Source: Sipunculus nudus
Lineage: Eukaryota; Annelida; Sipuncula; Golfingiida; Sipunculidae
Reading direction: 5' to 3'
DNA: 64,000 bases
NCBI GenBank assembly: GCA_026874595.1
Contig: CM049317.1
Coordinates: forward strand, 22,142,882 to 22,206,881
Shown in pieces: positions 7,395 through 50,879 of this stretch. Position 1 is the first letter of the stretch, and every line of letters begins with the position of its first letter. The position numbers and the translations under genes were made by a program. The notes beneath the pieces are model-generated. The model saw nothing but the letters and a program-made list of their open reading frames with translations. It ran no database searches and was not told where the DNA came from.

Positions 7395-10300
7395 GTAAAA
7401 CCTTGAAATTAACGCCATAAAGGGGACCTGGATAAAGTGGTCACATTTTTTAGTTGGTTGTCTTAAAGTAAGGTCTTATATAATGAGCAAAAAAGGAATC
7501 AGGACTGTGCACAAGTGGTTATTTTTAGGTGGTCACTATAAGGAGATGCTCAATAGGCAAGGTTTTACTATAATAATTATATATGCCCTGTACCAGTTGA
7601 AATTAATATATTATTAATCATATCAGGTTTATCTTATATAAAAATGAAAAATTATTTCTTTAGTTGAATTCCTAAAATCTATAATCACAGGAAATTGTCC
7701 TGTGCATGTTCCAACTGCAATATAATAAATCATATTCTGATATCATTACTATTCTGCTTTGTTTTCTGTCAGCTGAGATATCATGAAAATCTTATCTCTG
7801 CACAACACTGTAAAAGGGAAATCATGAAAATTAACCATGCAAATATGGAGCCAAACACAGAAGACTAATATGGGATTTTTATCTGCATAATATGAATACT
7901 TTGAAAACAGCCTTTAAACTGTATAGAATTTTCACAGTCAAGATTCTTAATGAATTTTTTTAAAATATGTATATAAAAATATATGGGCACTTAATAATTG
8001 CAGGAGATATCAATTTGTATATTTATTATTTAACAAATCATGGAATTCTTGGAGGTAATATGTTACCTAAGTGATAATTTATTACTGTTTTCATAAAGTA
8101 GCTTAGATTTTAGGTGTTTTTATCAGTGGGTGCCCATTAAAATTTGCTAATTATTGTAACACATTTTGACAGTCACATGCAGGATAAAAGGCCAAATGCG
8201 AAATGAAATATTTTGTGACACAAAACAGCATTTATCTTTTAGAACCGTCTCACATTGGCAGCCAGCCTAACCCCGATATTAACAATTTTTTTTAGAATAT
8301 TTATGACACTAAACAACCAATCAGCAGCTTTTGAATAGATTCCTTTGAAAATGTAACCACTGACCTTGACCTTCATTAATAGGGCTGAAATCTTATGAAA
8401 CACAGTCTCTTTGCAAACTGATTTGTAAAATAGTCTGCAAGTACAGCTTTCATACATTTTCATACATTTTCCAGTAAATCAGGGTAATATTCTTCATTAA
8501 CTGTATTTTTCTTTATTTACCAGGTCAAATTATGAAAATATTCCAAAATTGCAAGGGACACCATATGTGGAACAGCTTATAGGAAAACCAGCAAAATCGA
8601 TAATTTGTTTACTTATTGTATCCGCATTTTGCAGATACTATGTTTTCAGCCCCCTGTCGCCGCCGCGTAGGTGTCCAGAGAACTTCTCTGTAACCGCTGG
8701 GCGGAATTTTACAGAACCCGGGATTATGTTCAGGCCACATGTGAACTGCTGCCCACAATTTTGTTTTCACCTCTGACCTTTCCTCTGCACTCTGCTTCCA
8801 TCTGTGCGTCTGTTTTGACACATTAACCCACATATCTCGGGAACTGTTTGACCAATAAGGAATAAAATTTAGCACAAATGTAGCCCTTTGATAGCTTTAT
8901 AACAAACATAAAAAATGGTGGCGCCACCTGCATCCATTTTTGCACAGCATCCATCTGTTTATCTGCCTTGGGATAAAATCACTCATATCTCTGCATTGGT
9001 TGGACTTATCCATCTGAAATTTTGCATGTGTATACATCCTGGACAGCTTTCTTGATATAGACAGGTGGTGCCACCTACATTCACATTTACTCTGCAAACA
9101 TCCAAGCTCATGTCTCGGGAACCGTTTGGTCGATTGGTTCAAATTTTGCATGTGTATAGATCTCACATAGCTCTTTATCATGCGCAAAACTGGTGGCGCC
9201 ACTGTCTCTTTTGCACAGCATCTGTCTGTTTGTCTGCCTTGGGATAACATCACACATATCTCGGCAGTGGTTTGACTTTTTGCATTTGTATACAACTTTG
9301 ATAGCTTTCTGGATTTTGTGGTAGGTGGCACAACCTACACACACATTTCGGCTGCTGACATCCATGCTAATATGCAACACACCACTCTATTTCCCCTTGT
9401 TACTCAATCCATGCCTCACTTCACCAGTCCCACCCTGATTTTGGCGGATACACGTAGTCGCTTGTAGACTACCAGTATTCTAGTTACATTTTGAAAATAG
9501 GTACGGTACCCAACATAATCATCATGAAAATGGATATAGTCAAAGCAAGATGCATTAATGCATTGGGTCTTGACCCTTGATTTGAAATCTACACACATAA
9601 AGGCATTACTTTTCTCCATGTTAAGAAGCACTAATGACATCAACAGATGACCCAAGGAAATGTAGGGCAAATTTTAAAAGAAAAAATGATTCAGTTATTA
9701 TTTGGTGCTTGATTTTGCTACCACATATGATAGTTACAGATCTAGATGACTGAACACTCTGCCAATACGGATTATGTAATTCTAAGTTATGCCTTTTGTA
9801 AAAAGTATTTCAAATTCACTATACCATAAAAACATATTTTTCATTTGTTAAGGTTATAAAGAGGTTAATTACCTTCAGAATAATTACCGAATAATAATTT
9901 TGCCAGAGATTTACTATACAAAGGAATAAACACAAGAATAGCTGCACTGTTAGGGTTTTCAATTTTGCACAAAAAGTTCTTCTTTTCAGAGCATTGTTAG
10001 AAACACTCCAGCAGACTGGTTAAATCTTTTATTCTAATTAGTTATTTATTAACCATAAATTCGGATTTTGCTCCAGTGCGAGTCATTATTTTTTACTTCC
10101 TTGGATTATGGATCAGATGTAATGGGTGTTCCAAATGTTAAATGCACCACTGGGAGCATAATGTTCATTAAACGTAATTAAAGATGATTACAAAGCTTGA
10201 CTGATCTTCATAATGTCATTGCATTTCCAGCTAGTTTGGCACATACAAAATAGTAAAATAAATTACAATTTGCAACTCCAAAGAGGGATCTTTGCATGTT

Positions 10301-13300
10301 TAACCCAGAACAGACAGTTTCCTGTGGAATTTAAGCATGTGTGTGTACAAGATATAAACTGATGAATGTTTATGTGGATTTTCATGAAATGTGACAAACA
10401 GTTTCCAAGGCAGAGTGAAAATCCCTAAGATATCAAATGCTGGTGTAAATCCCTATGAAAATAAAACCGAGAATAGTCATTTCAATCACAATGATTTGAC
10501 ATACATGCACAAATATAATGCAAGTACTAAACATTTTTAACTCAAGTACAAGCTTCAATTACACAAAAATTACTCCTGAAGTACTGGCAGGGATGTATAC
10601 AACAAATAAAATTATTAAAGGCGTCACCACCAGTTTTGTGTATGAGAAATCATCAAAGATCATTAAGGACATATAAAATGTCAGGCAGATACTTCAAACC
10701 ACTCTTGAGCTATGTGCACAGATGTATGAAACTCAAAACAATACAGATTATTGCTAATGCAGCCTCTTGAGTAGATGGAGGAGAAAACGACTGGCTGGCG
10801 CAGCAGGAAGCCTGTTTGTGCAGGCAAGCTTGATTCACTTTTTAGGTTTCTGTTGATGTCTAATATCCTCATGTAAAAATATGATGTTAAATATAATTTC
10901 ATATCAAAGTATTAAACTAACAAAGCTGTGAAACCCACAAACGTTGCATTCTGGGTAGCATGGTACAGGTAGGATGGTACAGGTAGCATAGTGCTAATTA
11001 AACCATTGGGCTTTGAGGGCTTTTGTTTTAGTAAATATTTTCATTATTCATATTGTGTTAAAATATTAAAGATATTTGAACAATTAAATGAAATTCATTT
11101 AAAATCTAACCTTGCAAAATTGACAATTCAGATAATTAGAACTTTTGCTGATTGTCACAGTAAGAAAAACTCATGTGGAATAATTAAAGAAAGAATTCTA
11201 TTCCAGAAAATATCAACCAATGACTGAATCAGGACTACATAAAATGCTAAGTTATGACAAAGATCATAGTTTTATATTACAACCCCATATATATATAACC
11301 GCTACATCACTCATTCCTGCTGATATACAGACACATGAACAGTAAATTTACAGCACAAATGAACTGTTGGAGCTTTAAAGTCTCAGCAAACAAGACCGCT
11401 GTTCACTCAGGAAATTGTAACAAATACAGGACTTCATCGATTTTGCTGATTCTACCTTGCTCGATGGAAAAACTGCCTGGTTTACAACGAGTTTCACCAA
11501 GTTTATTCTCAGCGGATCAATTCCAACACAGGCGCGCTGTGCTTTGCTTCGTCAGCCTCGCTGCCAGAATCAATCCCAACGTGTGGTTAACCTGAGATGG
11601 TTTCCTGCCGACATCTCACCTGTTAGCATGTCGCAGATCAATCTGAGCTGTAACGGATATAACCTAAACTTCTAAGGAATGGTCCATGTTATTTTTAAAC
11701 ATAATTCTGTCACTGATGGATTGTTTGTATGATGAATGATATTGATTGGAAAGGTATCTCAGAAAATGATCACATAAGAATCAACCGTATTTGCTTAGAA
11801 GTTTCAATAATAATTTAAAAGCAAGAAATTAATATTGTCATCAAATACTGACTAAAGGATAATGGTTATGAAAGATTATTGAAACGCCAGAATTAATGAA
11901 AAAATAATATAATTATATTATTTTATTGTTAAAATTAATAAGTCACATAATTTAGTATAATGTATTATATCAGACTGCCAAAATGGAGACAGTTTGATCC
12001 GATGGTGGATGAAATTTCTTCTCAACTGCATATAAGACCAACTTAAATTAATATACATAATAATAATGTTTGATATTTGATTAAATATCAGGAATCTGTT
12101 TAATATCTTTTCAAATGACCATATCAAATATACCCTGGTTGCTTGGTTATTTCAAGAGAGAAGAGTTCAGAACATATTTGTTTTTATCATAGTAGTTTTT
12201 ATTAGTAAATACCAAATTGTCCAAGTTCTGTTTGAAATTTATTGTCACATTTAATGCAACAAATTTTCTGTCAAAAATAATACATGAACACATACACCTC
12301 ATCATTCAAATACACACATCAGAATGAAATCAACTGTAACCACAATATTTCTGTTGAACAGCAATTTTTTAATATTATGATTGAATAACACAAATGTGAC
12401 AGGCTTTTATGGCTCAGGGGTAGAGTGCATGACTCAAAGCAGGGGGATCGTGAGTTCGAATCTCAGCTGAGGCAGTGAGGTTTTTCACGGTCGGCCCCCA
12501 CCTAGTGTGAGCCCTCTGCAGGCTTAATGGGAAGGCTGTGCCCAACAGTTGTGTATCACTCACATACCAGTGCGTCTTTGGGAGGTTCCTCAGTGTTATG
12601 ACCCAGCAACAGGGATGATTACACACCCAGGACCCGCAGGTGCAGTAGACACCGGGCCTGGGTGACACCAGGATACAAAATAAACATGATAGGAAGCGAG
12701 TGCTACCGCCCTGTCAAGTAGTCCCCAACCAAAATGCAAAACTCTGCAGATGTACATACTTAGGTTAAGAATTAGATAAGTGGGCATTAAAAATTGGAGG
12801 CGGTACCCTCCACCAAAAAAAATTAAAAAAAAAGAATAACATAAATGTAACTTTCATCCAAGAAACCTTACGGCACATTCACTGCCAAAATGTTTTTTTA
12901 GATATTTTTATCCATTTATTTTATTCTCTTTTTTACTTTTGCTTGCTTATTTGATGCATTCAATTGGGAGAAAAGGCCAACTAAGAAAAAGAAATGGCAC
13001 CATATACTGGATGTTTTATTATTGAACAGATTTCAAATTACAAATTTGCCTTCTTAAGAATGCTGTGCTGAAAAGTAAACATAACGGTCGATAACAACGT
13101 GTTATGCAACAAAAATCTTTACTCCATGGGATCAATTAAGAGGATTTTTGTAAACTGTTCGATAAAGCACAAATGAAGACTGTTAGTGGTATTGCAATGG
13201 CTGAAAATCAGGTTACAAACAATTTGTCATTTGTGAAGGCTGGTGACGGTCCAGGTCAGCCAAGTGTGACACAGTCACTTCTTTTGCTTGCAGCAATGAC

Positions 13301-15234
13301 TGAAGTCATTCTTCACTTGGTGGCAGAAGTGGGATCGGACGGCTGGCCACAAAAGGGCTTTGTACCTGTTGTTTGGCATATTAAATATTTCTCCATAGCA
13401 GTTGCAGACTGCACAGAAATATGTAGGTTCTTCAAAAGCACCTCACAATACATAAACTTGACCCTCCCAGTAGGCTCCCAAGTGCAAATATTTGTGACTA
13501 ACAAAGTGGGGAGTGCATACAATTCTTGGCCTACTGTTTGTTTGTTCAGTCATGGGGAGATGTACTGAATATTTGTCCCTGAGGTCTCTCATTATGAATG
13601 GAACGTTCTTACTTATGTATGTGGACCTTAATCAGTCTTGTATTACAGGATAAATCCAAGGTATTCATGTCCCTGTATGTACCTATACATGTCTTGATTG
13701 CAAATTTCTCAATAAAACATGCAAATCACCATTGCAGTATTACTCATATTCTTGGAAATGTCCAGCTAACAACAGATATGAAGAAAAATTTTTGTGTTCA
13801 CCCTCAAGCAAATTATATAATTAGCAATGTTAATGTAATTTTCAGCCAAGCACAAATAATTTTACCCCATGCCAAATCACAATGATGTAATAACACCCAC
13901 ATTTATTTGTAATATATAATCATATATTCATATTGGTTCAATTTGTCAATCAGATTGTAAAATGGAACTTATTATAGCTATAAATTTGTTTATATTTTAT
14001 GAATAATGCTTAAAATGTTCATTTATTATAATATTTTAAAGAAATAATCTGAAATATTTTTTAGGGTGAAATCCAATGCGGTGATTTTAACAGACAAAAC
14101 AAATGTCAGTTATTTTCAATAGAACTCTCAAAAGTCAACTGAAGCCTAAACTTTATCTCATGTTCAGATGTCCTTTTATAATGAACATAACAAAACATGA
14201 ATTTAGGTTCCCTGGATCAAGCAGATTTTAGTGTTTTATTGATTGATTCCTGCACAGACATTTATCTGCTACTGTTTGAGGTATTGATGAATCAAGTTTG
14301 TTCTGTAAATCAGCAAAAAAAGGTCTAAAAACCATGGTATTGTACCAGTAATACTAAGAATATACTGTAGTTGACCTTTTTTATGGAAGTGTTTCAAATT
14401 CATGATATATCAGATGGGGAAATTATCATGAAAATAAAACCTTTGTGAGTAAGACCCTTAATCTGCACAGGTGGCAGATATAGCTTCAATGGAATCTCAT
14501 GTATATTGGGCCAGTAGCATCTATATTTGCATACATTTTATGTTACCCTTAATTCAAAGATTTATAATAGGAATAATATTAGTGTATCTGTCACTAATGA
14601 ATGAAGAATTTGACCTGTCCGATGCTCCCTTAGCTCCTCATGAAATTAAGTTTTGTGTGCATGTTGGGTAATTAATATAATAATTGTTATGTACATTGTG
14701 GAAGTTTAGCATGGTGAACCCCTTAGAGAAAATGGAACCCTCACCAGACATTGAATAAGTGAAAATTGTGAATATTTAAACTCGTGAATATGAAGCCAAC
14801 CACAGAATAAATAAAAGTTCCTTACCAGTTGACCAAGGTTCCAGCTCTTCTCTGCCATATCTGATGGCTTTAAATGGCTCAAACCCGGCACAGACATAAG
14901 CCTCGCCATCTTGCAGTTCTTCAATTTCCTGTACCTTCCTGCCCCCTACAGGAGTATAAATCTGCCTAACACCATACGGGAGGGGTACCGTCTTGGGCAG
15001 TTTGCTAGTAAGGTCACCAAGAAGGTCATTAAAAGACAGGTATCGGTGAGGTGTAATGTACAATTTCTTCCCTCGGAAGTAGCGATCCCCATTGCAGTAG
15101 AATCGTACTCGACGAGGATGGCGTAGATCACGATAGCGCTCTTCTGTCACATCCCGATGAGACTGCGACGGGATTGGCCGGCTGTAATACCTGCTTGAAA
15201 CTACCTGAGCCATTGGTGAACCCTCACCATACAT
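1169..15234 (-). CDS. Doublecortin-domain protein gene, partial (two exons in window)
   Basis: Gene-level entry for a microtubule-associated doublecortin (DCX) family protein read on the minus strand. The supported N-terminal exon is 15234-14826. A candidate next exon is 1282-1169, joined across a 13.5-kb intron in phase 1. The joined product in the window would be about 174 residues: a basic N-terminus, a complete DCX domain (about residues 41-126), a short linker, and the start of what looks like a second DCX domain. Tandem DCX domains bind between microtubule protofilaments in DCX, DCLK, RP1 and DCDC2 proteins. The first domain resembles DCX/DCLK in FYCNGDRYFRG and RP1 in VPLPYGVRQIYTP and EELQDGEAYVC, so no orthologue is assigned. 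A DCX-EMAP type protein is also possible. Any kinase, WD40 or other C-terminal region would lie left of the window. Confidence 0.75.
1283..3300. other. Intronic DNA without recognised genes
   Basis: No exon, RNA gene or clear repeat was seen. An open frame of 100 codons at 1532-1834 lacks any recognisable domain. The 2500-2900 part is more complex than its surroundings and contains no visible repeat, so it is a candidate for conserved non-coding sequence, but this cannot be tested from one genome. Confidence 0.4.
3330..3550 (+). repeat. Degenerate purine-rich tandem repeat
   Basis: Several imperfect copies of a unit containing AAATTAAGAATAGGAC followed by an A/G-rich tract recur at roughly 50-90 bp spacing (about 3380, 3470, 3515). 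The plus strand is almost pure purine over much of the block, which makes it a possible triplex-forming or H-DNA tract. It lies in the DCX intron. Confidence 0.6.
4055..4255 (+). repeat. AT-rich minisatellite, about 21-24 bp unit
   Basis: Eight or so imperfect copies of a unit like TTTATTAATTTCAAGTATA follow each other head to tail. The repeat creates a spurious open frame rich in FINFKYI repeats. That frame has no protein-family resemblance and should not be annotated as a gene. Confidence 0.8.
4892..4985 (+). repeat. Tandem repeat of about 31 bp, three copies
   Basis: Three near-identical units containing ATTATTTTGAGGCTATTTTA follow each other, differing at only a few positions. Confidence 0.8.
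4986..6009. other. Intronic DNA without recognised features
   Basis: No exon-like open frame with good splice signals was seen, and no clear repeat. A 106-codon frame at 5267-5587 has AT-driven composition and no domain. Confidence 0.4.
6010..6745. mobile_element. Foldback (long terminal inverted repeat) element, class unassigned
   Basis: The first 110-120 bp of this stretch reappear as an imperfect reverse complement at its right end. For example, CTGTGAATACACAACTCAG and the following GTAGGC at about 6062 match the reverse complement of the block around 6650-6690. The match continues through a CCTAACTTGA block, and outward into a GATTGTGTTG-type block. The interior of about 480 bp has no open reading frame of note. 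A non-autonomous DNA transposon is inferred. Exact ends and target duplication could not be fixed. Confidence 0.6.
7170..7394. repeat. Microsatellites: (TA)n, (CATA)n
   Basis: Two simple-repeat tracts, at about 7175-7207 and 7345-7394, flank a short unique segment. They create artefactual MYVC-repeat open frames on the minus strand. Confidence 0.9.
7395..7568. mobile_element. Tc1/mariner-pogo-like MITE with TA target duplication
   Basis: A 174-bp element begins GTAAAACCTTG and ends with the exact reverse complement CAAGGTTTTAC, with TA on both sides. The interior contains paired GTGGTCAC-type motifs. No coding capacity remains. The left TA lies in a (TA)n tract, which is a common landing site for TA-targeting transposons. 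Confidence 0.8.
7569..8616. other. Intronic DNA without recognised features
   Basis: AT-rich sequence with no credible exon, RNA gene or repeat boundary seen. Confidence 0.4.
8617..9489 (-). mobile_element. Diverged HINE-like element with tandem core, minus orientation
   Basis: Read on the minus strand, the element starts with AACTAGA and a hairpin of GTAGTC and GACTAC arms around 9450-9475, followed by GTATCCGCCA. The core has about 270-bp tandem units, each carrying a GGTGGCGCCACC-type palindrome (near 8921, 9067 and 9193) and repeated TCTCGG and GCATGTGTATA blocks. It then has a short CGG tract near 8660. It ends in a second hairpin, GTATCTGCA and TGCGGATAC around 8617-8637. This order is the same as in the three plus-strand elements at 17.4, 26.0 and 30.1 kb, although most of the sequence differs. 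Overlapping antisense frames of 60-144 codons here are by-products of the repeat. It has no transposase, so it would be non-autonomous. Confidence 0.7.
9490..12383. other. Intronic DNA; possible conserved non-coding islands
   Basis: No supported exon. Two stretches look unlike the low-complexity background: about 9950-10250, rich in TAAT-type homeodomain half-sites, and about 11330-11680, GC-richer and with no visible repeat. Both are candidates for cis-regulatory sequence, inferred from texture alone. The overlapping 72-86-codon frames at 11335-11675 have no domain. Confidence 0.35.
12401..12834 (+). mobile_element. Full-length tRNA-derived SINE with 17-bp target duplication
   Basis: The element starts with a tRNA-like head. 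An A box, TGGCTCAGGGGTAGAGTGC, lies at 12410-12428 and a B box, GAGTTCGAATC, at 12452-12462, giving an internal RNA polymerase III promoter. A body follows with TTTTTCACGGTCGG, and an A-rich tail ends at about 12834. It is bounded by imperfect direct repeats AATAACACAAATGTGAC (12384-12400) and AATAACATAAATGTAAC (12835-12851). These differ at two of 17 positions, the signature of LINE-mediated insertion with modest age. A diverged relative lies at 47.75 kb. The head is not called as a tRNA gene because the stem pairing is incomplete and it is embedded in the SINE. Confidence 0.9.
12852..14825. other. Intronic DNA; unassigned 131-codon open frame at 13173-13568
   Basis: The stretch follows the DCX exon donor on the minus strand and is therefore intron. 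A 131-codon plus-strand open frame (13173-13568) overlaps a 69-codon minus-strand frame ending CGQPSDPTSATK. Neither resembles a family recognisable by eye, and neither has clear splice sites in register. It could be a decayed repeat or pseudogene. Confidence 0.35.
14826..15234 (-). CDS. DCX gene N-terminal coding exon with complete doublecortin domain
   Basis: This exon encodes 136 codons plus one base on the minus strand. The start at 15234 (MYGEGSPMAQ) is chosen because an in-frame TGA lies two codons upstream of it. A second Met at residue 8 is an alternative. Residues 1-40 are basic and Ser/Arg/Tyr-rich. A DCX domain spans about 41-126, with the hallmark strand VRFYCNGDRYFRG (43-55), the FNDLLGDLT helix, LPYGVRQIYTP, and EELQDGEAYVCAG before FKAIRYG. 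The reading frame continues past residue 136 only into intron. The exon ends at ACTG|GTAAGG (last base 14826), phase 1. The product would bind and stabilise microtubules. A single exon carrying the whole first DCX domain at the N-terminus is usual for this family. Confidence 0.9.
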
Positions 15235-15305
15235 ACTTCACTCTCAAAGAATCCACTGTCTCACATGGTGTCACTATAACAGTCCCACCAAAATGCACAC
15301 TCTGC
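15235..15305 (-). other. 5' untranslated part of the DCX first coding exon
   Basis: Upstream of the start codon on the minus strand there is a credible acceptor (GTATTTCCAG, AG at 15307-15306). The exon would then begin at 15305 and have 71 bases of 5'UTR. This implies at least one further non-coding first exon and a promoter to the right in the window, at an unknown position. Confidence 0.55.
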
Positions 15306-15307
15306 CT

Positions 15308-17430: not shown

Positions 17431-18997
17431 ACTAGATATTTCTTGGCACCGCAGGTGCCATAGTATCGCCAGACAATTAATCCCCCCCCCCTTTAAGAAT
17501 AGGCCCCCCATCTTCAGCAACAATTAATATCAGACCACACTCATAGAAAAGGTCATGATCCAAATTTCAATATACATCATCCCCTAACCCATGTCTATGT
17601 ATATGCAAGAAATCTGTCCATTAGTTTTTGACTTATAATGCTCACAGTACTGTTAAGTGGCAATGATGGGGTATTAAACGGCACGAAAACAAGTAAAAGA
17701 ATAACAGGTGGCACCACCTGTTTCCCGTACATGACAACACTATCCAAGATCTTCGTTCAAGTTGATTTTTGGACCAATCAATGCATCCCTTATTGAGAAA
17801 TTAATGATTTTGTGTGATTTTCACCATATATGGCAATATTCAAGGTCAAGGCCACTTATTGGAAAGGTCATGACCCCTATTCAAATAAACATTATCCTAT
17901 AACCCATATCCATGTATTTGCATAATATGAAAGAAATTTGTCCATTAGTTTTTGACTTATAATGCTCACAGTACTGATAAATGGCAATGATGGGGTATTA
18001 AACGGCACAAAACAAGTAAAAGAATAACAGGTGGCGCCACCTGTTTCCGGTACATGACAATACTTTCCAAGATCTTCGAACATTTTGATTTTTGGACCAA
18101 TGCATGCAACCCTTATTGAGATATTAATGATTTTGTGTATTTTTCACTATATATGGCAATATTCAAGGTCAAGGCCACTCTAATTGGAAAGGTCATGACC
18201 CCAATTTATATATACATCATCCCATAACCCATGTCTATGTATATGCATAATATGAAAGAAATCTGTCCATTAGTTTTTGACTTATAATGCTCACAGGTTA
18301 TAAATGTACTGTTAAGTGGCAATGATGGGGTATTAAACGGCACGAAAACAAGTAAAAGAATAACAGGTGGCGCCACCTGTTTCCGGTACATGACGTTACT
18401 ATCCAAGATCTTCGGTCAAGTTGATTTTTGGACCAATGCATGCATCCCTTATTGAGAAATTAATGATTTTGTGTGATTTTCACCATATATGGCAATATTC
18501 AAGGTCAAGGCCACTCTCATAGGAAAGGTCATAACCCCAATTTAAATAAACATCATCCCATAACCCATATCTATGTATTTGCATAATATGAAAGAAATCT
18601 GTCCATTAGTTTTGGACTTATAATGCTCACAGTACTGTCAATTAGCAATTTTGGGGATATTAAACGGCATGAAAACAAGTAAAGAATAATAGGTGGTGCC
18701 ACCAGTTTCTGGAACATGACAACCCTATCCATGATCTTCCATCAACTTGATTTTGGGATCAATCCATGCACGTTTTCTTGAGATATTTAAGAATTTGTGT
18801 GATTTTCCCCAAAACTGAACCTATTCAAGGTCAAGGTCACTCTCCTAGTTGAGGTCATGACCTCATTTTAATAAGGTGTCTTCCTCTCACCCATATCTAT
18901 ACATATACCAAGTTTGGTAAAGATCTGTGAAATATTTTTTGAGTTATTGTGTCCAAAAGAAATCTCTGCGGCGGCGGCGGCGCGACCGTGCCTACAA
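17431..18997 (+). mobile_element. HINE-like non-autonomous element, copy A
   Basis: The element starts ACTAGATATTTCTTGGCACC. The GGCACC-GCA-GGTGCC hairpin follows, then ATAGTATCGCCAGACA and a C run. The core has four tandem units of about 325 bp. Each carries an ACAGGTGGCGCCACCTGT-type palindrome (17704, 18027, 18363, 18689), a TCAAGGTCA site and an AGGTCATGACC block. The last unit is diverged and leads to a (CGG)n tract near 18969-18982, followed by CGACCGTGCCTACAAT. The right terminal hairpin seen in copies B and C is missing exactly between GCCTA and CAAT. There is no transposase. The tandem core plus hairpin ends recall Helentron-associated elements of bivalves; that assignment is inference. 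Apparent frames with ETGGATCYSFTCF are repeat artefacts. Confidence 0.8.
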
Positions 18998-19425
18998 TAA
19001 CAGGTAGATATTGGAACAAAGTATATATTTAAGCATCTTGGTACTGAAGCTACACCTTAATTAAACTATATGACAAGATAGTGGAATCATCTCTACAAAA
19101 TCCATCACTTACGTAAACCAGGAGTTGATATTGGAATTAATATCTGGAAATCATGAACTACTCCATGATCTACAGACGTTTGACATTTAACATACATATA
19201 TATTTGGAATTCCCCATGTATGAGCTAGAGATAAATATATATTAAAACTTCCAGGAGATGACAGACAAGGAAGAGGAAATATTGTAACAGGTTCATTAAA
19301 TCCCACTTTGATGTGACCAAAACCTCATTCTTGTAGAAATAATGACAATTTGCTGATGAGTTACGAACAGGGAAATCATATCCTTGCTGTCCAGGGTTAT
19401 TTCCTTAAACATATTACTCCTTTGC
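18998..19425. other. Non-coding DNA
   Basis: AT-rich sequence between the HINE-like element and the minisatellite. Nothing recognised. Confidence 0.4.
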
Positions 19426-19945
19426 AGCCAGACTTCAGGCTGGGTGATTACATACTTCACACAGTTTGAAGACTAATTTCAGACTTACTATTGACTAACT
19501 TCATACAGGTTGAGGACCAACTTCAGACCTGTTGGTGACTAACTTCAGACTGGTGGAGGACTTACCTTAGAGTAACTTAGACTGATTGTATGAAGACTAA
19601 CATATGATTGGTTAGGACTAAGACTAACTTTAGACTGGTTTAAGACTGGGACTATCTTTAGACAGGTCAAGCACTAAGTAACTTCAGACTGGTCAAGAAC
19701 TAACTTCAGGCTGGTTGAGGATTGACTTTAGACTGGATGAGGACTACCTCACTCTGGTTGAGGATTAAATTCACATTTGTTAAGGACTTTCTTCACACTT
19801 GATGAGGATTAAATTCACATTTGTTAAGGACTTTCTTCACACTTGTTGAGGACTAAATTCCCACTGGTTACGGATTATAAAAAACAAAGGTTGAGAATTA
19901 ACTTGAGACTTTTTAAGGACTAACTTCAGACTGGTTCATGACTTA
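19426..19945 (+). repeat. Degenerate minisatellite with GACTAACTTCAGACTGGTTGAG-like unit of about 22 bp
   Basis: About 20 imperfect copies of a unit reading approximately ACTAACTTCAGACTGGTTGA span roughly 520 bp, with a block of longer higher-order duplication (ATTAAATTCACATTTGTTAAG) near 19760-19840. Unit length varies, so no continuous reading frame is maintained. Confidence 0.8.
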
Positions 19946-22900
19946 TGTATGAAGAGAATCCAGGATTTCATCCAATCTGTCAGACCATGGGACAGACCAA
20001 AAAGTATAAAAACAAAAAATTTGGAATTATTCATATTCTTAATTTCTTTAATGCAACATCAGGTGGTAACTTCCATAAATAGTCTTACATTAAATTATAC
20101 AAAACATGTGCTATCAATAACACTATCCCCCAAAAGTACACACAGGTGAAACAGACTGTAGATCTCTAAAACCTTGATGTCTCCTTGAGTCACAGATCTA
20201 TGGGCCTGCACAGCAAGAGACAGAATTAAGTCACTGAGGAGCAATGGGTCCATGTACAAATAGTAATTACTGGTATGTACCCAGTATACACAGTTCAATG
20301 GTATATACTATCAAGTGTATATGTGACAAGTGCCACTTATACAGTCATCAGAAATTTAAATACAAGCTCGGCTTTCCATCTCTGTGTGTGCGCCATTGGT
20401 AAAACGGCAGCTCTGTTAAACTTAAACAGGTTTTATTTTAAATCTTTTGTTTAAAGTCTTTTGTTTCTAGGAATTGAATTTTTACCTCCCCTCTGTGGTT
20501 TTCCTGGTAGCAAAATTACACAGATAGTTATAAATGGATTGATATAATTTTTGGGAGAGCTTGGCAATGGTACAAGGAAAAAATCCTTACATTTTGGGGA
20601 GATCCAGATCACCATATATGAATCTAAGATATTTGTTCAGGAAAAATGCTGCATTACTGATAAAATGAAATGCGGGTAATGAGCTGCCTTGGCTGATGTC
20701 TGCACTATCTGAGTGCTCATATTCTAGTTAAATTTTATTCACAATTTTCTGGCATTAAAGAAATAAGATAGATGGAATAAAAAAGATTCTGACATATTGT
20801 CATTTAGTTTGATATTATTGCACTGCAAAGGTAGTTTGCTGTTAATGGTTGCTAAAACTGTGTAATAATAATATTCAAAACTTTTAAAATTATCAAAATG
20901 TTTAACTACCATATGAAAAGGAATGTGATACCATCAGGAAAAGAACTACCTGGGAGTAATAATAATATACTTCATGAATCTATTATTATTTTATTATTGA
21001 TTTTAACAAAGGGCATTTTGAAAATGATGCATCTTTAACAGACAGATCTATTATCTTAAACATAATCTTGTAAAAACTTCCTTCAATCATACCAAGAAGG
21101 GTATCAATCATCCAATAATGTGTTGGTTTGGTTTAAGCCAGCAATGTAGCATCACCTGGACAAGAATATACTTGGATTTGTGATGTATCTCACAACTGTA
21201 ATCAGACCTGAAGCTATTAATTTAAAATCATTTGGTCTTAAATAATCTTGAATATAAATCTTAAATATCACATTCCAAGAATTCCAAATTATTTATGGAA
21301 CTTAAAAACCCAAAAAATACTGCATTAAAAAGTTTATTTTTCAATTCTTACTTGTTAGCCTTCATTGTAATTGACGTTAAGTTACTTGCATGTCTATAGA
21401 TATAAATATGCATCATACACAGTTCATTTCCCATATTTTGGACCTTCACTTCATGGAACAAAAATATAATTATCTTTACTATATTATCTTTTTAAGATTT
21501 TTATATTTTTTTCCTATTTTGTCTCTGTCTCTTTTTCTCTTTTCAAAAGTGTAGATTTTCTACTCAAGCACAGCAGCATTAAAATCCCACTTTAAGAACA
21601 AAAATGTAAACATTACAAAATGTTAAGCTCATGAAATCTTTTGGAACCCATGGCTTATTATATATACAATTCTGCAAAGCAGATAAAAGATATGATCAAG
21701 TTAAACTGGAAAGTAATTCAACCAATTTTTACATCAGTTGTCATCAGTTGTGGTGCATGGTCTATGGCTATTAGCTTCCAAAAAGACTAAATCAAGGGAC
21801 TTTTTTTTATTTTTACAGACAAGTATGTCCATGGATGAATTATTTCTCTTACTGGCAGACTGGCCTTTTTGCTTCACTACTTGATCAAACTGCTGCCAAA
21901 AGTGCACATCTTGTAGGTACTGAAATGAAATTATCAAAATTTAGAATTTTTCAGAATTTCCAACAAGTGCAATGATGATTTTAACAAATGCTTTGTTTTG
22001 CTTATGATTTGTGGTATACCCATAATTTCATCATGGGACCTTTGACATCAAGGTTAAGTGTGCATGCAAACTGGCAGCCCAATGAGTGGTTTTGAAAAAA
22101 TGGAGAATAAACCTGTCAAGAGTTCTACAAAAAGTACAGGGATGCAACAGGGAAAGTACTCCTAGGACAGAATCCAGAGAAGAATCTAACTGCTGAGAGT
22201 CTGCTGGCAAGGGATATGCAACAGCAGAGTTTAAAGCAGAGTAACACTTTTTTGGTCCATACCCAAATACTCCACTTGAAAGTATATTATACATATGGTC
22301 CCTCAACGAATCACTGTGGTATCTGTTTTCATACCTTAATCAACATGAACACTAACGTAAAACTCAAAGCAGGACGAGCCCCTAATATAAATAAAAAGAA
22401 CTAAACTCTATAGTGAAAATTATAAACATTTTTAACAGGTTTAACACATAAACTGTACACTACACATGTACTGAAGGTGGTTCCAAAAATCCCTCTAATG
22501 GTGTGCATGACGAAAACCTTTCAATGAATAGCCTCATTGATTACTGGTTCCATGGGACTAATGACCTGTTTTCTACAAAACATTTACCTTTTTCTATTCA
22601 CATTGATTGTGCGCTATATTAGTTGTGTCCAGAATGGTTGAAATGTTCTTTTCACCAAGTGTTTTTCCCTTCCATTTGCATGGGTGCTCCTGAATCAATG
22701 TCTCTTGAATAAATTGGCCCCTTTTACCCATAACTGCACCCCTTTTAATACTCTTTTACCTATATATGACCTATCATTAATGACTAAATTTTGAATTGCT
22801 ATATACAAGGAACATGTCAAGGCCTATCCAAAGTTGTCATAATTCACCAAACATTATTCACAGAGTAATTTAATTGTAAATGATCATTCATGTAACATTT

Positions 22901-23640
22901 AAAGCTTACACGTTAAATGCCCAAGAACTACTTATTTGGCAAAACAGTGTAAAAAACTTTTAGTGTTAGCTTAAAAGCAAGCTTTGATTTCTTTAAGGAA
23001 AACTTGTGTTACTTATGTGAGCTCTATCAAATCTGTTCTGTAGTCAGTGCTTTAATATCTCAAGAAAGGTTTTTCTTAAAGTCTGTGTCAAAGTGACAAG
23101 ACTAAGGCATTTGACATTAGCAACTGCCTGTGAGGAAGATAAATTAACTCCTGCATGAAAAAAATACTCCATAAACTTATTCATCATGTCATGAATATGA
23201 AAGGCCTTTAACGTAAAATGTGTTTCTTTCAGGGTTTTTAGACAGAAATTTCAAAATTTTTGCTAAATAACTACATAAACAATACATCAAAGAAAGGTTT
23301 TTCTCCAGGTTTCTTGTTTGATCATTGCTGATTGAGCCATGAATTGGAAAAAGGTAACACCCACCTGAACATAATATTACATAATTATCGATAAACTATC
23401 TATTTACTCTGATAAGTTGGCATCAAAAATATTTTATAAAATAATTTAATATAATTGCATAATTTGACTAAAATTGTTTCTGATGCAAAACCTTGGGAGG
23501 TACATCAAAATTTTTTTACCTCCATAATAGACTAGATTGGTTACATTTTTGCGTTATCAATCACAAATGATTATGTATGCACATGCAGGAAAGTCAAATT
23601 ATCCAGTAAATTATATTCTAATCATGTCAAAGATATGAAG
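19946..23640. other. Non-coding DNA without recognised features
   Basis: Long AT-rich stretch. Open frames of 60-91 codons (for example 21734-21937 and 22031-22306, minus) lack domains and are not conserved-looking. No RNA gene, repeat array or transposon ends were identified. Confidence 0.4.
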
Positions 23641-23870
23641 ATGATGGAACACAAAGTTGTTAATGGCATTAACACTTAACCTTGCGCAGCAAAAAATTAA
23701 GTGTCAACAATCTGGCATTACCGTACTGACCTTACTGCATGATGAACAAGTCAGACTGAATCTATTCTGGCATTATACTGCAGGCATAATTCTATACAGC
23801 ACATTTCATGGTAATGGTGAAGGTGTATAAATAATTGATTAATAATCAATCATTGGTTGTTTTTTCTTCC
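23640..23870 (-). repeat. Dispersed repeat of about 230 bp, minus copy
   Basis: The reverse complement of this block matches 29085-29300 in the same order of motifs: AACAACCAATGATTGATTAT, then TATAGAATTAT, ATTCAGT, ACTTGT, AAGGTCA and TTGACACTTA. This indicates a dispersed repeat family in inverted orientation 5.2 kb apart. Class and ends are unknown. Confidence 0.6.
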
Positions 23871-24289
23871 AAACATCAAAGATGGTTTTGAAACCAATTC
23901 CTACCATAAGGCATGTGCACTGTCAAATGAGAAGTAGAAATCATCACTAATAACCATTTTATTCATTTTGCTTTCTTATGGGTCTTTCACTCCTCATCTA
24001 TTTATCCATCCCCAAGTTTATTCCCCAATCAATATTTAAATGACAGGTCCTGAATGGTACTCCCTGATACAGAGAATTTATGACATCATTAAGTCACCCC
24101 TTGGGGTAATAATATATGGCAGCCAGTCTGGGGGTCAAATACCACAACATGACAAAACTGAGTCATATGAGATCACACACTTAGGTTAAAACTATACTGA
24201 CAGCACAATTTTCATATGCTTTTTCATCATCATAAGTTTATTTTTAGAACTTTGGGTATTTTGTAATTTTTATAATATACTAGTTATAA

Positions 24290-24572
24290 GGCCAATAAAA
24301 TAAAAGGTATGGTTCTCAGGCACTTTTTTTCCAGAAATCAGTGCAGGCGGGTGGTATTTTATTTTTGACCTGTTTTGTAAGTTTCAATAAAAATGTCATA
24401 TGATCAGAAAAAGCATGAAAATAACAAACTGTTTCACTGAACAGGTAAAAGCACTACATCAACTGTTCTAAATATCTTCTTTGAAGATAAAAATCAAAAT
24501 AAAAACTTTTGATGCGGGGGGTTTAAATTGACGCAAGCCGTGCCTGAGAATCATACCTCTTATTTTTTTGCC
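24290..24572. mobile_element. PIF/Harbinger-type MITE, copy 1
   Basis: A 283-bp element with terminal inverted repeats running from GGCCAATAAAATAAAAGGTA through GGTTCTCAGGCAC, mirrored at the right as GTGCCTGAGAATCATACC and ending TTTGCC. It is flanked on both sides by TAA. Three-base TWA target duplications with GC-rich terminal bases are typical of PIF/Harbinger elements. There is no coding capacity. Confidence 0.75.
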
Positions 24573-26020
24573 TAATACTCTTCTAAACATGACTGGCTGT
24601 TGTGTGAAATGTAACGGTACATTATCCACACAGGCTTTTTATTTAATATATCAATATTTTATGAAAAGAAGATTTGAAAATTTGTTTAAATGATGTGTTG
24701 TTGTCAGAGCCATCAATAATCTTACTGGTGCTTGTAAGAGCCATCAGTAATAATATTAGTTTCTTTGCAACAATAAATATAACAACCTTTCAGTATTTAA
24801 TTTATCATGCCATCTATATCCTCACAATAATTACAACTTTTTTTTCATGGTAATTATATTCTAAGTTAATCATTCCAGTTTTCATCCCATTACATTTTAT
24901 GATTATTTTAAATAACAACTTCACAGCCAGAAAATAATCTTGGATTTTTCTTGCTAGGAATTAACTGATAACTGTCAACAAGTAATTAAATTCTGAATTC
25001 AAAACTGAGGATACCAGTGTACATAGAATTTTTTAAGCTGGGTAAAACAAATCATAAATAAAGCTAAAGAAAAAAATATTAACAACGTACTGTTCGTTCT
25101 TAATTCAAATCTATTCATGACAATGATGAACAAGTTTTAGAGAATAATTATGTATTTATTCTTTATTTCGTTTTAAAAACATATTAGCTAATATTTAACA
25201 AATCTAGAGTGGATATCTCACACTGGCTATTTTCTGGAATTGCATGACTGTTTTAGTTCTTTGATTATTTCACAATCTAAAAAACATGTCCTTCAAGTAT
25301 TTAGAGTGCACATACATGTACCCAGTATTCCATAGAACTGAACCTTAACATTAAGTGAATTGCCATTTAGCACTTACAACACAGTGGCTGAATTATGCAC
25401 ATAACTATTGAGATATCCAGCAATAATGTAACCCAGATACAAGGAGTCGGACACAAAGCAAACAGGATAATTTTATTAATCCGTCTGACATGGAAAGTAA
25501 AAATTAATCACAAAAACAAAAGTGAAAATTACTCTGTTGTTGTTGTTGATGTCATAAATTCTCATACAGGGTGCAATAATCAAGTATGTGCACTGGAAAA
25601 CAGGTTTCTCTCTGATCTACAGTTTGAAAGAGAAAACATAATTAACTTGAGCAATAAATATAAATAATACCAAGTGATCCATGGGTAATGGAACTCCGCA
25701 GACAATCCTGGTTAAGTGTTCTACCCATGTTAACAATGGACCAGAGTAAAAAATTATTATTTCAATAATTCACTTAAAAATATGAATTACACTTTTATTT
25801 CCTATATTTAATAATTCCTGGTTTTTTCCATGATTTTTAAAGTGATTTTTAAAACAAATTATGACTTCATTTCATTGTGTATATGACAGACTCTTTGTTA
25901 TTGCTATGTTCAAGAAACAGATTATATTGTTCTTGTTCTAAACATGAATTAAGAAAACCCTATAATCTTTATGGCACTATTGATATAAATTTGTGTGTGT
26001 GTGTGTCTGTCCATATATAA
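24573..26020. other. Non-coding DNA without recognised features
   Basis: AT-rich. A 90-codon frame at 25395-25667 has no domain. A (GT)n tract near 25991-26006 abuts the HINE-like element. Confidence 0.4.
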
Positions 26021-27265
26021 ACTAGACATTTCTTGGCACCGCTGGTGCCATAGTATCGCCAGACAAATGAGCTTTTATGGTATTTTGTTGATATAATGTT
26101 ATGTATTTGTATTTTAGCAATGAATGTCAGAAACATTTGTACAAATATAGGAATATTTAAAGTGAAGGCAATTGTTATGTAAAAGGTTATGTATAAATAG
26201 AAGTATATATTTAATGATGTATTGAGTTGTATATGTATGTTTGGAGTAACTTGTTTGAGAATAATATAGAGTAAAGCAGAAAGAAAGAGAAAGAGATGGA
26301 TAGACAGGATTTCAGAGAGATGGAGAGATATGATAATGGTTAGTGTAAAACTGCATTCCAAAATATCCAACATTTGAAAAAAAATTAAATTAAAAAAAAA
26401 ATAATTTAAATTAAATTAAATTTTAAAATTAAATTTAAAATTAAATATACCTCATTCCATAAACCATATCTATATACATGCATAACATGAAAGAAATCTG
26501 TCCATTACTGTTTGACTTATAATGCTCACAGTATATACTGTCAAGTGGCAAGGATGGGGTATTCAAAGGCGCAAAAAACAAGAAAAGGACAACAGGTGGT
26601 GCCACCTATCTTCTGCAAAAGACAAAACTATCCAAGATCTTCCGTCAACTTGATTTTTGGACCAATCCATGCATCCCTTTTTAAGATATTCATGATTTTA
26701 TGTGATTTTCACCATATATGGTAATATTCAAGGACAAAGCCACTCTCAAAGGAAAGGTCATGACCCCAATTTTAATATACATCATCCCATAACCCATACC
26801 TATGTACATGCATAATATTAAAAAAATCTGTCAATCAGTTTTTGACTTGTGATGCTAAAAGTACTGTCAAGTGGCAATGATGGGGGTATTAAATGGCACA
26901 AAAACAAGAAAAGGATACTAGGTGGCACCACCAGTTTCCGGTACATGACATCACTATCCAAGATCTTTGTCCAACTTGATTTTTGGATAAATCCATGAAA
27001 GATTTCTTGAGATATTTAAGAATTTGTGTGATTTTCCCCAAAAATGGATCTATTCAAGGTCAAGGTCACTCTCCTAGTTGAGGTCATGACCCCATTTTAA
27101 ATAGGCTTCGTCCTCTCACCTATATCTATAAATGTGTCAAGTTTGAAAAAGATCCTTGAAATATTTTTTGAGTTATTGTGTCCAAAAGAAATCTCTGCGG
27201 CAGCGGCGGCGGCGGCGCGACCGTGCCTAAACCATAGTATCTCCAGACTATGTCTGGCGATACAA
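26021..27265 (+). mobile_element. HINE-like non-autonomous element, copy B
   Basis: This copy starts ACTAGACATTTCTTGGCACC with the hairpin GGCACC-GCT-GGTGCC and ATAGTATCGCCAGACA, like copies A and C. About 390 bp of unrelated AT-rich sequence (26066-26450) then replaces the first tandem units. Two tandem units follow, with palindromes at about 26592 and 26920. The diverged last unit comes next, then the CGG tract near 27198-27216, CGACCGTGCC, and the complete right hairpin GTATCTCCAGAC-TAT-GTCTGGCGATAC ending ACAAT. The right-end GTCTGGCGATAC is the inverse of the left-end GTATCGCCAGAC. Confidence 0.8.
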
Positions 27266-27394
27266 TTATATTTACTGGAAGTCAATATCATATGGACATC
27301 TGCAGAATTCCATTCTGGATTCGGACTATGTTACATGCTTTCTCAAATTTTATATCCTGGTTTTAACTACGCCTTAAGATTACTGTACCTGCGG

Positions 27395-27530
27395 GCACCC
27401 ATGGATTTTGCCCAATCAAACTTCAGTGAGGTTATCTGTTGGTAAGTAATTATTTTTAAGTCAAGTGAAAATCTGAAGCCCTGGTAAGTTAACATGGTGT
27501 CACCGTGACACCAAAAGATGACTGATGGAC
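27395..27530 (+). repeat. Single monomer of an about 170-bp tandem family
   Basis: This block matches the monomers at 31975-32425. Shared motifs are ATTTTGCCCA, ACTTCAGTGAGGTTATCT, GTAAGTA and a GGTGTCACCGTGACACC palindrome (27496-27512, perfect 8-bp arms). It lies 130 bp downstream of copy B. Confidence 0.6.
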
Positions 27531-27802
27531 AAAATGACATGGACAATGAGTATACCATAATATATAGTATAAAATAAAAAGCTATGATAACAAACACCAA
27601 TATGCAGAAATAAAAGAAAATACGAATTCCCTGACTACTCTCTGCTTCGAGACGTTTTGACTGATGGACAAACTGACATGCAGTGGCCAAAGAAAATACC
27701 ATAATTAATAATATATATTAAAAAGCTACTATATCCAACACCAATATGCAGAAATAAAAGAAAATACCAATTCCCGGACTTCTCTCTGCTTCGAGACATT
27801 TT
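27522..27802 (+). repeat. Tandem duplication, 139-bp period
   Basis: Two direct copies begin CTGATGGACAAA at 27522 and 27661 and run to CTCTGCTTCGAGACRTTTT. Divergence is low, so the duplication is recent. It overlaps the end of the 170-bp monomer. Confidence 0.85.
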
Positions 27803-29084
27803 CCTGGACTTATTCCTGATTATATGAAGGGAAGGTTCAAGGTTTCCTCTATTTCAAGTTGGCTGGAAACCCAGTAGAATGACAAAAATTTTCAAAATTA
27901 GCTAAATTTATATTAAAAGAATATATCCTACGTGTAATAAAAATGCTTCATCCTTGCAATTAAAACTGCTTAACATGCAGAATTAATTTGTCTGTGACAG
28001 ACCTTGAGGAATTCAGCTTTTAATTACTGCAAGAAATGTTAAATTAATTTCCAAAGAGCAGATATGTAAACTTTTTGGTTTATAATCTTATTTAAAGAAT
28101 GCAATGCAAGTGATGGAATGAATTAAAGGTGAGATCCCTTGAAGTGGTCAGTATCTAATCACTCCAGCAAGCGGCTAGAATTTATTTACAAAGTGATCCG
28201 TTTGAGTATCCATGGTGATGCACGTGCGGGATAAAGAGGTATCGTTATGGAAACGGTGCTGCTAGATGCAGATGCTAAGGGCGCCAACTCTTCACTTGAT
28301 AACGCGAAGAAAACACAGGAAATGTAAAATCCCACCCCACTACCCTTATAATGTGGCCCCCCCTTTGATGCCATCCTCGCCGCTCACTCCATCAAAACTT
28401 CCGGCCTTCCGTAAACAAAAGGGGGGTTGAAAAACCTGCACTCGACACTGTGTTGATGACTGTGACATCGGTAATTACCAAGCCCCCATGCCCTCATGGC
28501 CCCCACATATGTTCACTGAACCATTCCTGAGCTCCGATTTTACACCACAAACCTGATAAGCTACGAGGGAGTCTGGTCACATCCAGTTCTCTGCTATATG
28601 TCAACCTGCCATTCATTTTATAATGTATCAAAAGTGGTATAATCTCTATTCAATTTTCAAGCAAATCTTACATCAATTTTATTCAGCCAAGTACTTCGTT
28701 ACAGCAGATTAAAATGTTTTCTGAGCATATATGCATGTTATCCATCAGGGCTACATGATAGCATTTTTTATTAAGTTTCATCAATTCTTTCTCATGCTTT
28801 CCAGAAAACAATGGTAATTTCAAAGAAAATAAAATATCTCAAAACCTGTCAATGGGATCACATAATTTTCCAGATAAGCAAAATAATTAAATTGTGTGCT
28901 TTTACAGAAAGAATTATAGATAATAAAAACTGGGATATTAATTCAAACGTTATATAATGTAATAAAGCTCATTACTAACAGAGAAAACACTGAGCAAGGC
29001 CCGGCATACAACATATCAATATATTGGTCATTGTCTGAACTACGGGTACGAATCGATTGTAAAAATATATTTGATGACTTGACA
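27803..29084. other. Non-coding DNA with a GC-richer patch
   Basis: The patch at 28190-28560 is distinctly GC-richer and not repetitive, with GTATCCATGGTGATGC near 28205 that loosely resembles an RFX X-box. No convincing exon was found. It could be an alternative promoter or enhancer; this is weak inference. Confidence 0.3.
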
Positions 29085-29300
29085 ATAAAAAACAACCAAT
29101 GATTGATTATTAATTAAGTATAATATTATGTACCAGTTACATTACCGTGAAATATTCTCTATAGAATTATACCTAATATATTAACCAAATAAATTCAGTA
29201 ACTTGTACATGACACACTGAAAGGTCAAGGTCATGGCTTGGTCGTTGACACTTATTCCTTGCACAAGACTTTTAATGCTATTTTTTGCAATGTCTAACTT
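29085..29300 (+). repeat. Dispersed repeat of about 230 bp, plus copy
   Basis: Reverse-complement partner of 23640-23870. It includes AACAACCAATGATTGATTAT and an AAGGTCAAGGTCA direct half-site pair at about 29221. A partial echo (CCAATGATTGA) recurs near 29403. Confidence 0.6.
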
Positions 29301-30100
29301 ACATCTCTGACTGAATAAGACTTCTTTGAACGTGCACACGATCGTTTATTATTATTTTTATTATCCATTATGCAATAAATTTAAATGATTATGAAAAAAA
29401 TGACCAATGATTGAAAAATTGATTAATTGGTGCACCAGTAGTATAAACTCTGTAAACACGAGTGTCAGAATGCGTCTTAAACCGATAACTAACCATCCAG
29501 TTTAGTCCTCATCACTGCTGTCCTAACAATTTTTAACTTGTTCTGCTGTACAAAATGTAACTTCCTGGTAAGGAATTAACATAAATTTTATTGATAAACA
29601 AAAATAAATAAATTTTCTGGCTACAACGACAAACTGCAGGAAATGTCATAACATAATATAACTGTGCCTTAAATATAAGGGTCCAATCTCCATCAAAAAC
29701 AGCTACATCAAACTACATCAACAAGGCTCAAAATTAACTTTTGTATGTAATTGCCCAGTAACAAAGCTTTTACTTGCCCTACATGAATTTTTACTTGCCC
29801 TTACAACAACAGCACAAACGATTGTAGTTAATCGTTTCTGGCAAGTTGGACAACCAAATTCTTCATATTTTTTTATAATTATAATTATAATAATTTGATA
29901 ATTATATTTCTTTTTTTAGTTTCTAGTCCTTTGACTTGGCTTAAGCAAGCAGCCTACCATTTAAGTTGAGCCCTGACCATTTCTTTTTATTCATATTAGA
30001 TCCCAGTATATTTCATTTAAAATCTGACACAGTCTTTCAAATTAAATGTATTTATGAACTTATTCATTTTGGTATGTTTTTTTTTCCAATTTATTTAATA
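29301..30100. other. Non-coding DNA without recognised features
   Basis: AT-rich sequence between the dispersed repeat and the third plus-strand HINE-like element. Nothing recognised. Confidence 0.4.
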
Positions 30101-31664
30101 ACTAGATATTTCTTGGCACCGCAGGTGCCATAGTATCCCCAGACAATTAATCCCCCCCCCCCTTTAAGAATAGGACCCCATCTTCAGCAACAATTAATAT
30201 CAGACCACACTCATAGAAAAGGTCATTCTCATAGAAAAGGTCATGATCCAAATTTCAATATACATCATCCCATAACCCATATCTATGTATTTGCATAATA
30301 TGAAAGAAATCTGTCCATTAGTTTTTGACTTATAATGCTCACAATACTGTTAAGTGGCAATGATGGGGTATTAAACGGCACGAAAACAAGTAAAAGAATA
30401 ACAGGTGGCACCACCTGTTTCCCGTACATGACAACACTATCCAAGATCTTTGTTCAAGTTGATTTTTGGACCAATCAATGCATCCCTTATTGAGAAATTA
30501 ATGATTTTGTGTGATTTTCACCATATATGGCAATATTCAAGGTCAAGGCCACTTATTGGAAAGGTCATGACCCCTATTCAAACAAACATTATCCTATAAC
30601 CCATATCCATGTATATGCATAATATGAAAGAAATTTGTCCATTAGTTTTTTACTTATAATGCTCACAGTACTGATAAATGGCAATGATGGGGTATTAAAC
30701 AGCACAAAACAAGTAAAAGAATAACAGGTGGCGCCACCTGTTTCGGGTACATGACAATACCTTCCAAGATCTTCGAACATGTTGATTTTTGGACCAATGC
30801 ATGCATCCCTTATTGAGATATTAATGATTTTGTGTAATTTTCACCATATATGGCAATATTCAAGGTCAAGGCCACTCTAATAGGAAAGGTCATGACCCCA
30901 ATTTATATATATACATCATCCCATAACCCATGTCTATGTATATACATAATATGAAAGAAATCTGTCCATTAGTTTTTGACTTATAATGCTCACAGGTTAT
31001 AAATGAACTGTTAAGTGGCAATGATGGGGTATTAAACTGCACGAAAACAAGTAAAAGAATAACAGGTGGCGCCACCTGTTTCCGGTACATGACATTACTA
31101 TCCAAGATTTTCACCATATATGGCAATATTCAAGGTCAAGGCCACTCTCATAGGAAAGGTCATGACCCCAATTTAAATAAACATCATCCCATAACCCATA
31201 TCTATGTATTTGCATAATATGAAAGAAATCTGTCCATTAGTTTTTGACTTATAATGCTCACAGTACTGTCAAGTAGCATTTTTGGGGATATTAAACGGCA
31301 TGAAAACAAGTAAAGAATAATAGGTGGCGCCACCAGTTTCTGGAACATGACAACCCTATCCATGATTTTCGATCAACTTGATTTTGGGATCAATCCATGC
31401 AAGTTTTCTTGAGATATTTAAGAATTTGTGTGATTTTCCCCAAAATTGAACCTATTCAAGGTCAAGGTCACTCTCCTAGTTGAGGTCATGACCTCATTTT
31501 AAATAGGCGTCGTCCTCTCATCCATATCTATACATATACCAAGTTTGGTAAAGATCCGTGGAATATTTTTTTGAGTTATTGTGTCCAAAAGAAATCTCTG
31601 CGGCGGCGGCGGCGCGACTATGCCTAAACCATAGTATCTCCAGACTATGTCTGACGATACAATA
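30101..31664 (+). mobile_element. HINE-like non-autonomous element, copy C
   Basis: This copy is nearly identical to copy A over most of 1.5 kb, including the C run after GACAATTAAT and the unit order. Tandem palindromes lie at 30401, 30724, 31062 and about 31320. The third unit has lost about 75 bp, so the last spacing is about 259 rather than 326 bp. A short duplication of TCATAGAAAAGGTCAT lies near 30205-30240. The CGG tract near 31601 is followed by the right hairpin with one mismatch (GTCTGACGATAC) and ACAAT. Unlike copy A, the terminal hairpin is retained. Confidence 0.8.
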
Positions 31665-31960
31665 AATGGTAGGCATGTGTAATACAATACAATAACATAT
31701 ATAAAAGCATTAATATTAAATTATATAAATTGTCAATATAAAGACACAAGTAACAATTTTGCCTGAACCTCAAATTTGTATTGCAGGAAAATATCAAGAA
31801 AATAAATATTAATGCCAAAAGTTAAGGTGATTTCCATACACCGAGAGCTAAGATTTTCAGAGTACACCTGTTCTAAAAGGTCCTCTGCCAGGAACCAGCA
31901 TATATATTGGTAATGTGTAAAAATATATATAACAAGAGCACTGCAAATGGTGCATAATAT
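31665..31960. other. Non-coding DNA
   Basis: AT-rich spacer after copy C. An 86-codon minus-strand frame at 31733-31993 has no domain. Confidence 0.4.
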
Positions 31961-31969
31961 GCCTGTTGC

Positions 31970-47730: not shown

Positions 47731-47744
47731 ATTTTACCGGCTTC

Positions 47745-50788: not shown

Positions 50789-50879
50789 TAAATAGTATTA
50801 ATAAAATTCCTGGATCTTGGACACTTGCAGAAATTCGTAGAACATACCGCCATCTGGTTTGTGTTAGATAAACTATTTG

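Follow-up and report, generated by a model that had tools for sequence, protein, structure and literature searches.

Four satellite-bearing insertions in a Sipunculus nudus contig resemble non-autonomous Helentrons

What kind of element could have left four short loci, built to one plan around tandem repeats, in a single stretch of an annelid genome? The loci, here called E1-E4, lie in 64,000 nucleotides of Sipunculus nudus contig CM049317.1 (the window), where an earlier note had pointed to a common order of parts. Helentron relatives are thought to be copied by rolling-circle replication and to carry short satellite repeats. Perhaps E1-E4 are insertions of this kind? We conclude, at a probability of roughly 0.87, that they are non-autonomous Helentrons (HINEs; E1 is HINE-like) with satellite-like arrays inside, mobilised in trans by a predicted Rep/helicase/endonuclease. 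They look like ordinary non-coding mobile elements, of a kind already known from oysters and flies. E2-E4 are one sequence family and E1 a second, both new members of this known kind of element.

Read as HINEs, with E1 on the plus strand and E2, E3 and E4 on the minus strand, the four share one layout (Table 1). Each would run from a 5' TTG and a subterminal inverted repeat (subTIR) with its hairpin partner (IR), through a (CGC)n microsatellite and a satellite-like tandem core, to a 3' subTIR, a palindrome, 7-8 further nucleotides and CTAG followed by TT. The parts follow one another as described for HINEs in PMC4067079 and PMC7492417 (5' subTIR, IR, microsatellite, repeats, 3' subTIR, palindrome), which favours the HINE reading. 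The earlier note had also seen this layout, which is borne out, starting from an ACTAGA on the left. ACTAGA, however, is the CTAG-T of the 3' end read on the other strand; hence the order given there is opposite to the probable direction of transposition, and ACTAGA would be the 3' terminus.

Table 1. Features of the four elements (positions in the window)
Feature	Position	Strand	Basis or remark
E1, HINE-like element, second family	8616..9483	+	868 bp, both ends present
E1 5' subTIR + IR	8618..8638	+	hairpin fold GTATC...GATAC
E1 CGCCGCCGCG microsatellite-like tract	8658..8667	+	sequence
E1 tandem core, about 280-bp dimer	8831..9371	+	palindromes at 8917, 9064, 9192, 9324
E1 3' subTIR GCGGATAC	9444..9451	+	8 letters match 5' copy, inverted
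E1 3' palindrome, 6-bp stem, 7-nt loop	9454..9472	+	7 nt before CTAG at 9480-9483
E2, HINE-like, first family	17432..18997	-	5' hairpin deleted
E2 CTAG 3' end, then TT	17432..17435	-	
E2 3' palindrome, 7-bp stem, 3-nt loop	17444..17460	-	
E2 3' subTIR	17463..17474	-	complement of GTATCGCCAGAC
E2 tandem core, 336-bp unit, 4.1 copies	17535..18871	-	TRF
E2 (CGC)n microsatellite	18968..18984	-	sequence
E2 5' remnant TTGTA	18993-18997	-	
E3, HINE-like, first family	26022..27265	-	both ends present
E3 3' palindrome	26034..26050	-	
E3 3' subTIR	26053..26064	-	12/12 identical (inverted) to own 5' subTIR
E3 stretch unmatched in E2 or E4	about 26067-26437		next to 3' subTIR
E3 tandem core, 326-bp unit, 2 copies	26444..27100	-	TRF
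E3 (CGC)n microsatellite, imperfect	27198..27219	-	sequence
E3 5' subTIR + IR hairpin	27237..27263	-	
E4, HINE-like, first family	30102..31662	-	both ends present
E4 3' palindrome	30114..30130	-	
E4 3' subTIR	30133..30144	-	one letter off GTATCGCCAGAC
E4 tandem core	30219..31531	-	TRF array 30219-31112, 323-bp unit; BLAST matches extend to about 31531
E4 third core unit, shortened			270 bp counting both palindromes
E4 (CGC)n microsatellite	31600..31617	-	sequence
E4 5' subTIR + IR hairpin	31634..31660	-	

How distinctive are these ends? AACTAGA, at the end from which the earlier note started, is present in all four elements; by itself it is unspecific, with 13 occurrences over the two strands of the window. 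Beside it stands a GTATC-type motif in every case (exactly GTATCSCCAGAC in E2, E3 and E4; GTATCCGCC in E1), and all four have a palindrome there, 7-8 nt before CTAG. The ACTAGA-type start, the terminal hairpin and the adjoining motif described previously are thus all confirmed. In E2-E4 the distance from GATAC to the end is 31 nt, in E1 32 nt, despite differing palindromes. Both the CTAG followed by TT and a 5' end reading ATTGTA are found in 4/4. Scanning the window for CTAGT with an upstream hairpin gave seven matches, and the four with GATAC beside the hairpin are exactly E1-E4; 20 first-order shuffles gave on average 2.55 matches, 0.05 of them with GATAC. Two of the remaining matches, near 59937 and near 6253, are without GATAC. 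The last, near 20701-20727, was considered as a fifth element and rejected: it has no adjacent GATAC, no 5' end was seen for it, and about 2.6 matches are expected by shuffling.

The 5' subTIR folds with its complementary IR in E1, E3 and E4, where the right-end hairpin of the earlier note accordingly stands; in E2 it has been deleted. Compared with E4, E2 goes straight from TTGTA to GGC. The 33 nt that are missing, with TA at both deletion borders, comprise the remainder of the 5' subTIR together with its IR and a few more bases. That E2 reads ATTGTA at its outer edge favours a 5' end lying outside GTATC. As a naturally occurring copy that has no 5' fold, E2 could help in asking if the fold is needed.

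The subTIRs of E2-E4 fall within the expected length of about 11-15 bp: the inverted copies agree at 12/12 letters in E3 and 10/12 (two mismatches) in E4, and E2 has a 3' copy only, identical to E3's. The last arm had been given as GGCGATAC or GCGGATAC, which does not hold for E4, where it reads GACGATAC. E1's two copies agree over only 8 letters, against 11-15 bp published for HINEs. Hence we call E1 HINE-like and no full HINE member; it fits the HINE layout with subTIRs shorter than those published.

Sequence comparison separates the two families. E2 and E4 are 94.7% and 96.4% identical in two BLAST pieces, and 94% over 1573 columns of a full alignment that takes in some 25-43 flank bases on each side. 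E3 is 74-75% identical to both, as aligned with short flanks and the non-homologous E3 stretch included. The strong divergence reported for the four loci therefore applies to E1 and not to E2-E4. By the rule given in PMC4067079, at least 11 identical subTIR letters, E2 and E3 are classed on sequence as one family and E4 as its variant. E1 is placed outside on account of its 8-letter subTIR match and because its monomers, cut free of the palindrome, resemble none of those compared: three E1 units set against three of the seven whole E2-E4 units, in both orientations with 200 shuffles each, showed no relation in 18 comparisons (lowest p 0.040, rest at least 0.13).

A tandem core is present in all four elements, as had been noted; TRF gives units of 323-336 bp in E2-E4, and self-BLAST finds the repeat in E1 at 71% over 283 columns. 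The palindrome said to mark each core unit is also real. At up to two mismatches GGTGGCGCCACC occurs 17 times in the window against 0.28 expected, and 16 of the 17 lie inside E1-E4 (two of these in the CGG tract). The compared monomers of E1 and of E2-E4 have nothing in common beyond it, and a 12-bp palindrome within otherwise unrelated monomers is the mildly odd point of this locus. Five of the ten E2-E4 copies are exact and the other five differ at the central CpG only, variation that also fits ordinary CpG decay; among the four E1 copies one is exact, one differs at the CpG only and two differ elsewhere. Is the palindrome a specially conserved spot in E2-E4? Ten of its 12 columns are invariant in ten aligned copies, but five other 12-column windows also reach 10, and special conservation within this family is thus unsupported. 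Perhaps separate Helentron-like families share GGTGGCGCCACC because it has a function, binding a protein or arresting a strand and so seeding or maintaining arrays? We regard this as unlikely. How such elements gain tandem cores is a question on which the palindrome common to both families could bear.

Each locus appears to have been reached separately. Plain satellite arrays might instead have spread via segmental duplication, with no transposition, and three related copies do lie inside about 14 kb in one orientation. However, similarity ends at the element ends. Flanks of 298 bp, compared for six pairs on two sides with the two bases adjoining each end left out, fell within the shuffle range in 12/12 comparisons, and are unrelated in 6/6 pairs; moreover, ends of one kind cap all the arrays. 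We conclude that E1-E4 are separate insertions, which leaves segmental duplication scarcely credible.

Which enzyme, then, might have inserted them? If E1-E4 were MITEs of a cut-and-paste DDE transposon, the inverted motifs, which are indeed present, would be its terminal inverted repeats. PIF/Harbinger transposons make TTA-type duplications, and TTA stands directly outside both ends, at the same offset, in E1 and E4, shifted by one base in E2; the chance of TTA in at least two of four copies at one offset is 0.007, in a test chosen post hoc. Yet in E3 no TTA adjoins the 5' end on its outer side. Direct repeats close to the ends are at most 4, 3, 5 and 5 nt long, at offsets that vary; random draws with the end letters matched equal or pass their summed length in 10% of cases, and no fixed-length target duplication common to all four was found in the flanks. 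Nor does the geometry suit such a transposon: the inverted motif lies 2 nt from one end and more than 30 nt from the other, and the very ends, TTGTATC and CTAG, are not inverted copies of one another. We judge a DDE origin highly improbable. A canonical Helitron, which would begin with 5'-TC, end in CTAG-3' and sit between A and T, is very unlikely as well. It would explain the 3' end, since a CTRR end with its palindrome and a following T (CTAG-T) is found in 4/4; the hairpin, 7-8 nt before CTAG, is thus 11-12 nt from the end, against about 11 nt in canonical Helitrons. At the 5' end A-TC is present within GTATC, but ATTGTA outside that TC is common to all four elements, whose flanks are otherwise unrelated, and the TC does not follow a host A. 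Inverted subterminal repeats, a 5' IR and a microsatellite are, in the account of PMC4067079, traits of HINEs and DINE-1.

The Helentron-associated reading, which the earlier note had favoured, remains the best fit, given the inverted subterminal repeats, 5' hairpin partner, microsatellite, tandem core, 3' palindrome and T-flanked ends. At least two Ts flank each end in all four elements, and HINEs are described in PMC4067079 as having T-flanked ends and leaving the target unmodified. The results that weigh most against it are the TTA at both sides of E1 and E4, the shortness of E1's subTIR and the failure to observe an enzyme. We also count against it that E2 is without a 5' subTIR, that the 3' subTIR lies nearer the end than in mites, and that the sample is small, four copies only. 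A six-frame motif scan of the window for Rep/helicase coding found no Walker A and no strict Rep motif; its one loose Rep-pattern match lies in a frame interrupted by stops. Such absence from the window is expected for non-autonomous copies, and the partner stays unseen. By its own account the oyster study (PMC7492417) could not relate an autonomous partner to its Cg_HINEs either.

How might non-autonomous Helentrons of this design move? Rep/helicase/endonuclease would come in trans from an autonomous Helentron at another place in the genome. The enzyme may nick the 5' end at TTGTATC, with the subTIR folded onto its IR, and its helicase would then peel one strand off through the microsatellite and the tandem core, the latter copied along as cargo. 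The palindrome adjoining the 3' subTIR could pause the helicase, and the strand, severed just past CTAG, would then be ligated into a T-rich target, presumably with no target duplication. A 3' hairpin acting as terminator has been demonstrated experimentally for Helraiser, a canonical Helitron (PMC4778049); for Helentrons this role is inferred from the family.

Among described elements, the Cg_HINEs of the Pacific oyster, as characterised in PMC7492417, share with E1-E4 a 5' subTIR (normally 11-12 bp), IR, microsatellite, satellite-like array, 3' subTIR and 3' palindrome, as well as TT-rich insertion sites and the occurrence of related and wholly unrelated families in one genome. They differ in unit length (mostly 140-180 bp, against about 325-335 bp in E2-E4) and in microsatellite, with 4-nucleotide motifs in most Cg_HINEs and a CGC tract in ours; E1's subTIR is also the shorter, by description rather than sequence. 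The DINE-1 and mite HINEs portrayed in PMC4067079 likewise have a subTIR 2-4 nt from the 5' end, a 5' IR (DINE-1), a 3' stem-loop and at least two Ts at each end. Their subTIR sequence is different, and in mites the 3' subTIR lies 38-60 nt from the end, against 31-32 nt in E1-E4. Subterminal inverted repeats, a tandem core and a microsatellite also recur in the bivalve Pearl family (CvA and others), DTC84 and MgE, whose core repeats, unlike ours, are about 160 bp (compared by description; PMC7492417, PMC5874043).

Short strings from E1-E4 matched no transposon paper in a literature search of titles and abstract starts that did not extend to figures, which is weak evidence that the families are unpublished. 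The subTIR-IR pattern had no match in viral and prokaryotic contig collections, which says little because those collections hold viral and prokaryotic sequence; the failure of one 421-base core stretch to match phage sequences says equally little. Rfam gave no match at gathering scores. With E1-E4 the Helentron relatives that carry satellites gain two sequence families whose ends are marked, and these boundaries can be used in a genome-wide hunt for the autonomous partner.

Other repeats lie nearby. A short array at 31937-32420, with units of about 140-150 bp, starts near ACAAGAG and carries GTGACCTCTGA at 31977, 32117 and 32269 and one GGTGGTGCCACC at 32097. It is perhaps another satellite-bearing element, and its units showed no relation in the monomer comparison (12 comparisons, lowest p 0.085). 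At 19454-19943 is a minisatellite of 22/44-bp units of TAACTTCAGACTGGTTAAGGAC type, which no test made links to E1-E4.

As for coding sequence, one of seven frames scanned, at 14776-15237 on the minus strand, contains a doublecortin domain (PF03607, E 9.6e-20). Among solved chains doublecortin and doublecortin-like kinase come closest, which points to an animal. At a lax cut-off, two of those seven frames and two additional ones gave nothing above curated scores. The minus-strand frame at 47433-47804, which we take to resemble a LINE reverse-transcriptase fragment, had no match in Pfam. Another dispersed repeat family is found at 24286-24569, 34175-34732 and 50445-50789, its copies near 34.2-34.7 kb being inverted. 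At 51215-51603 and 52994-53377 lies an inverted repeat pair (84%), and 55120-55712 and 55801-56387 form a tandem duplication (76%).
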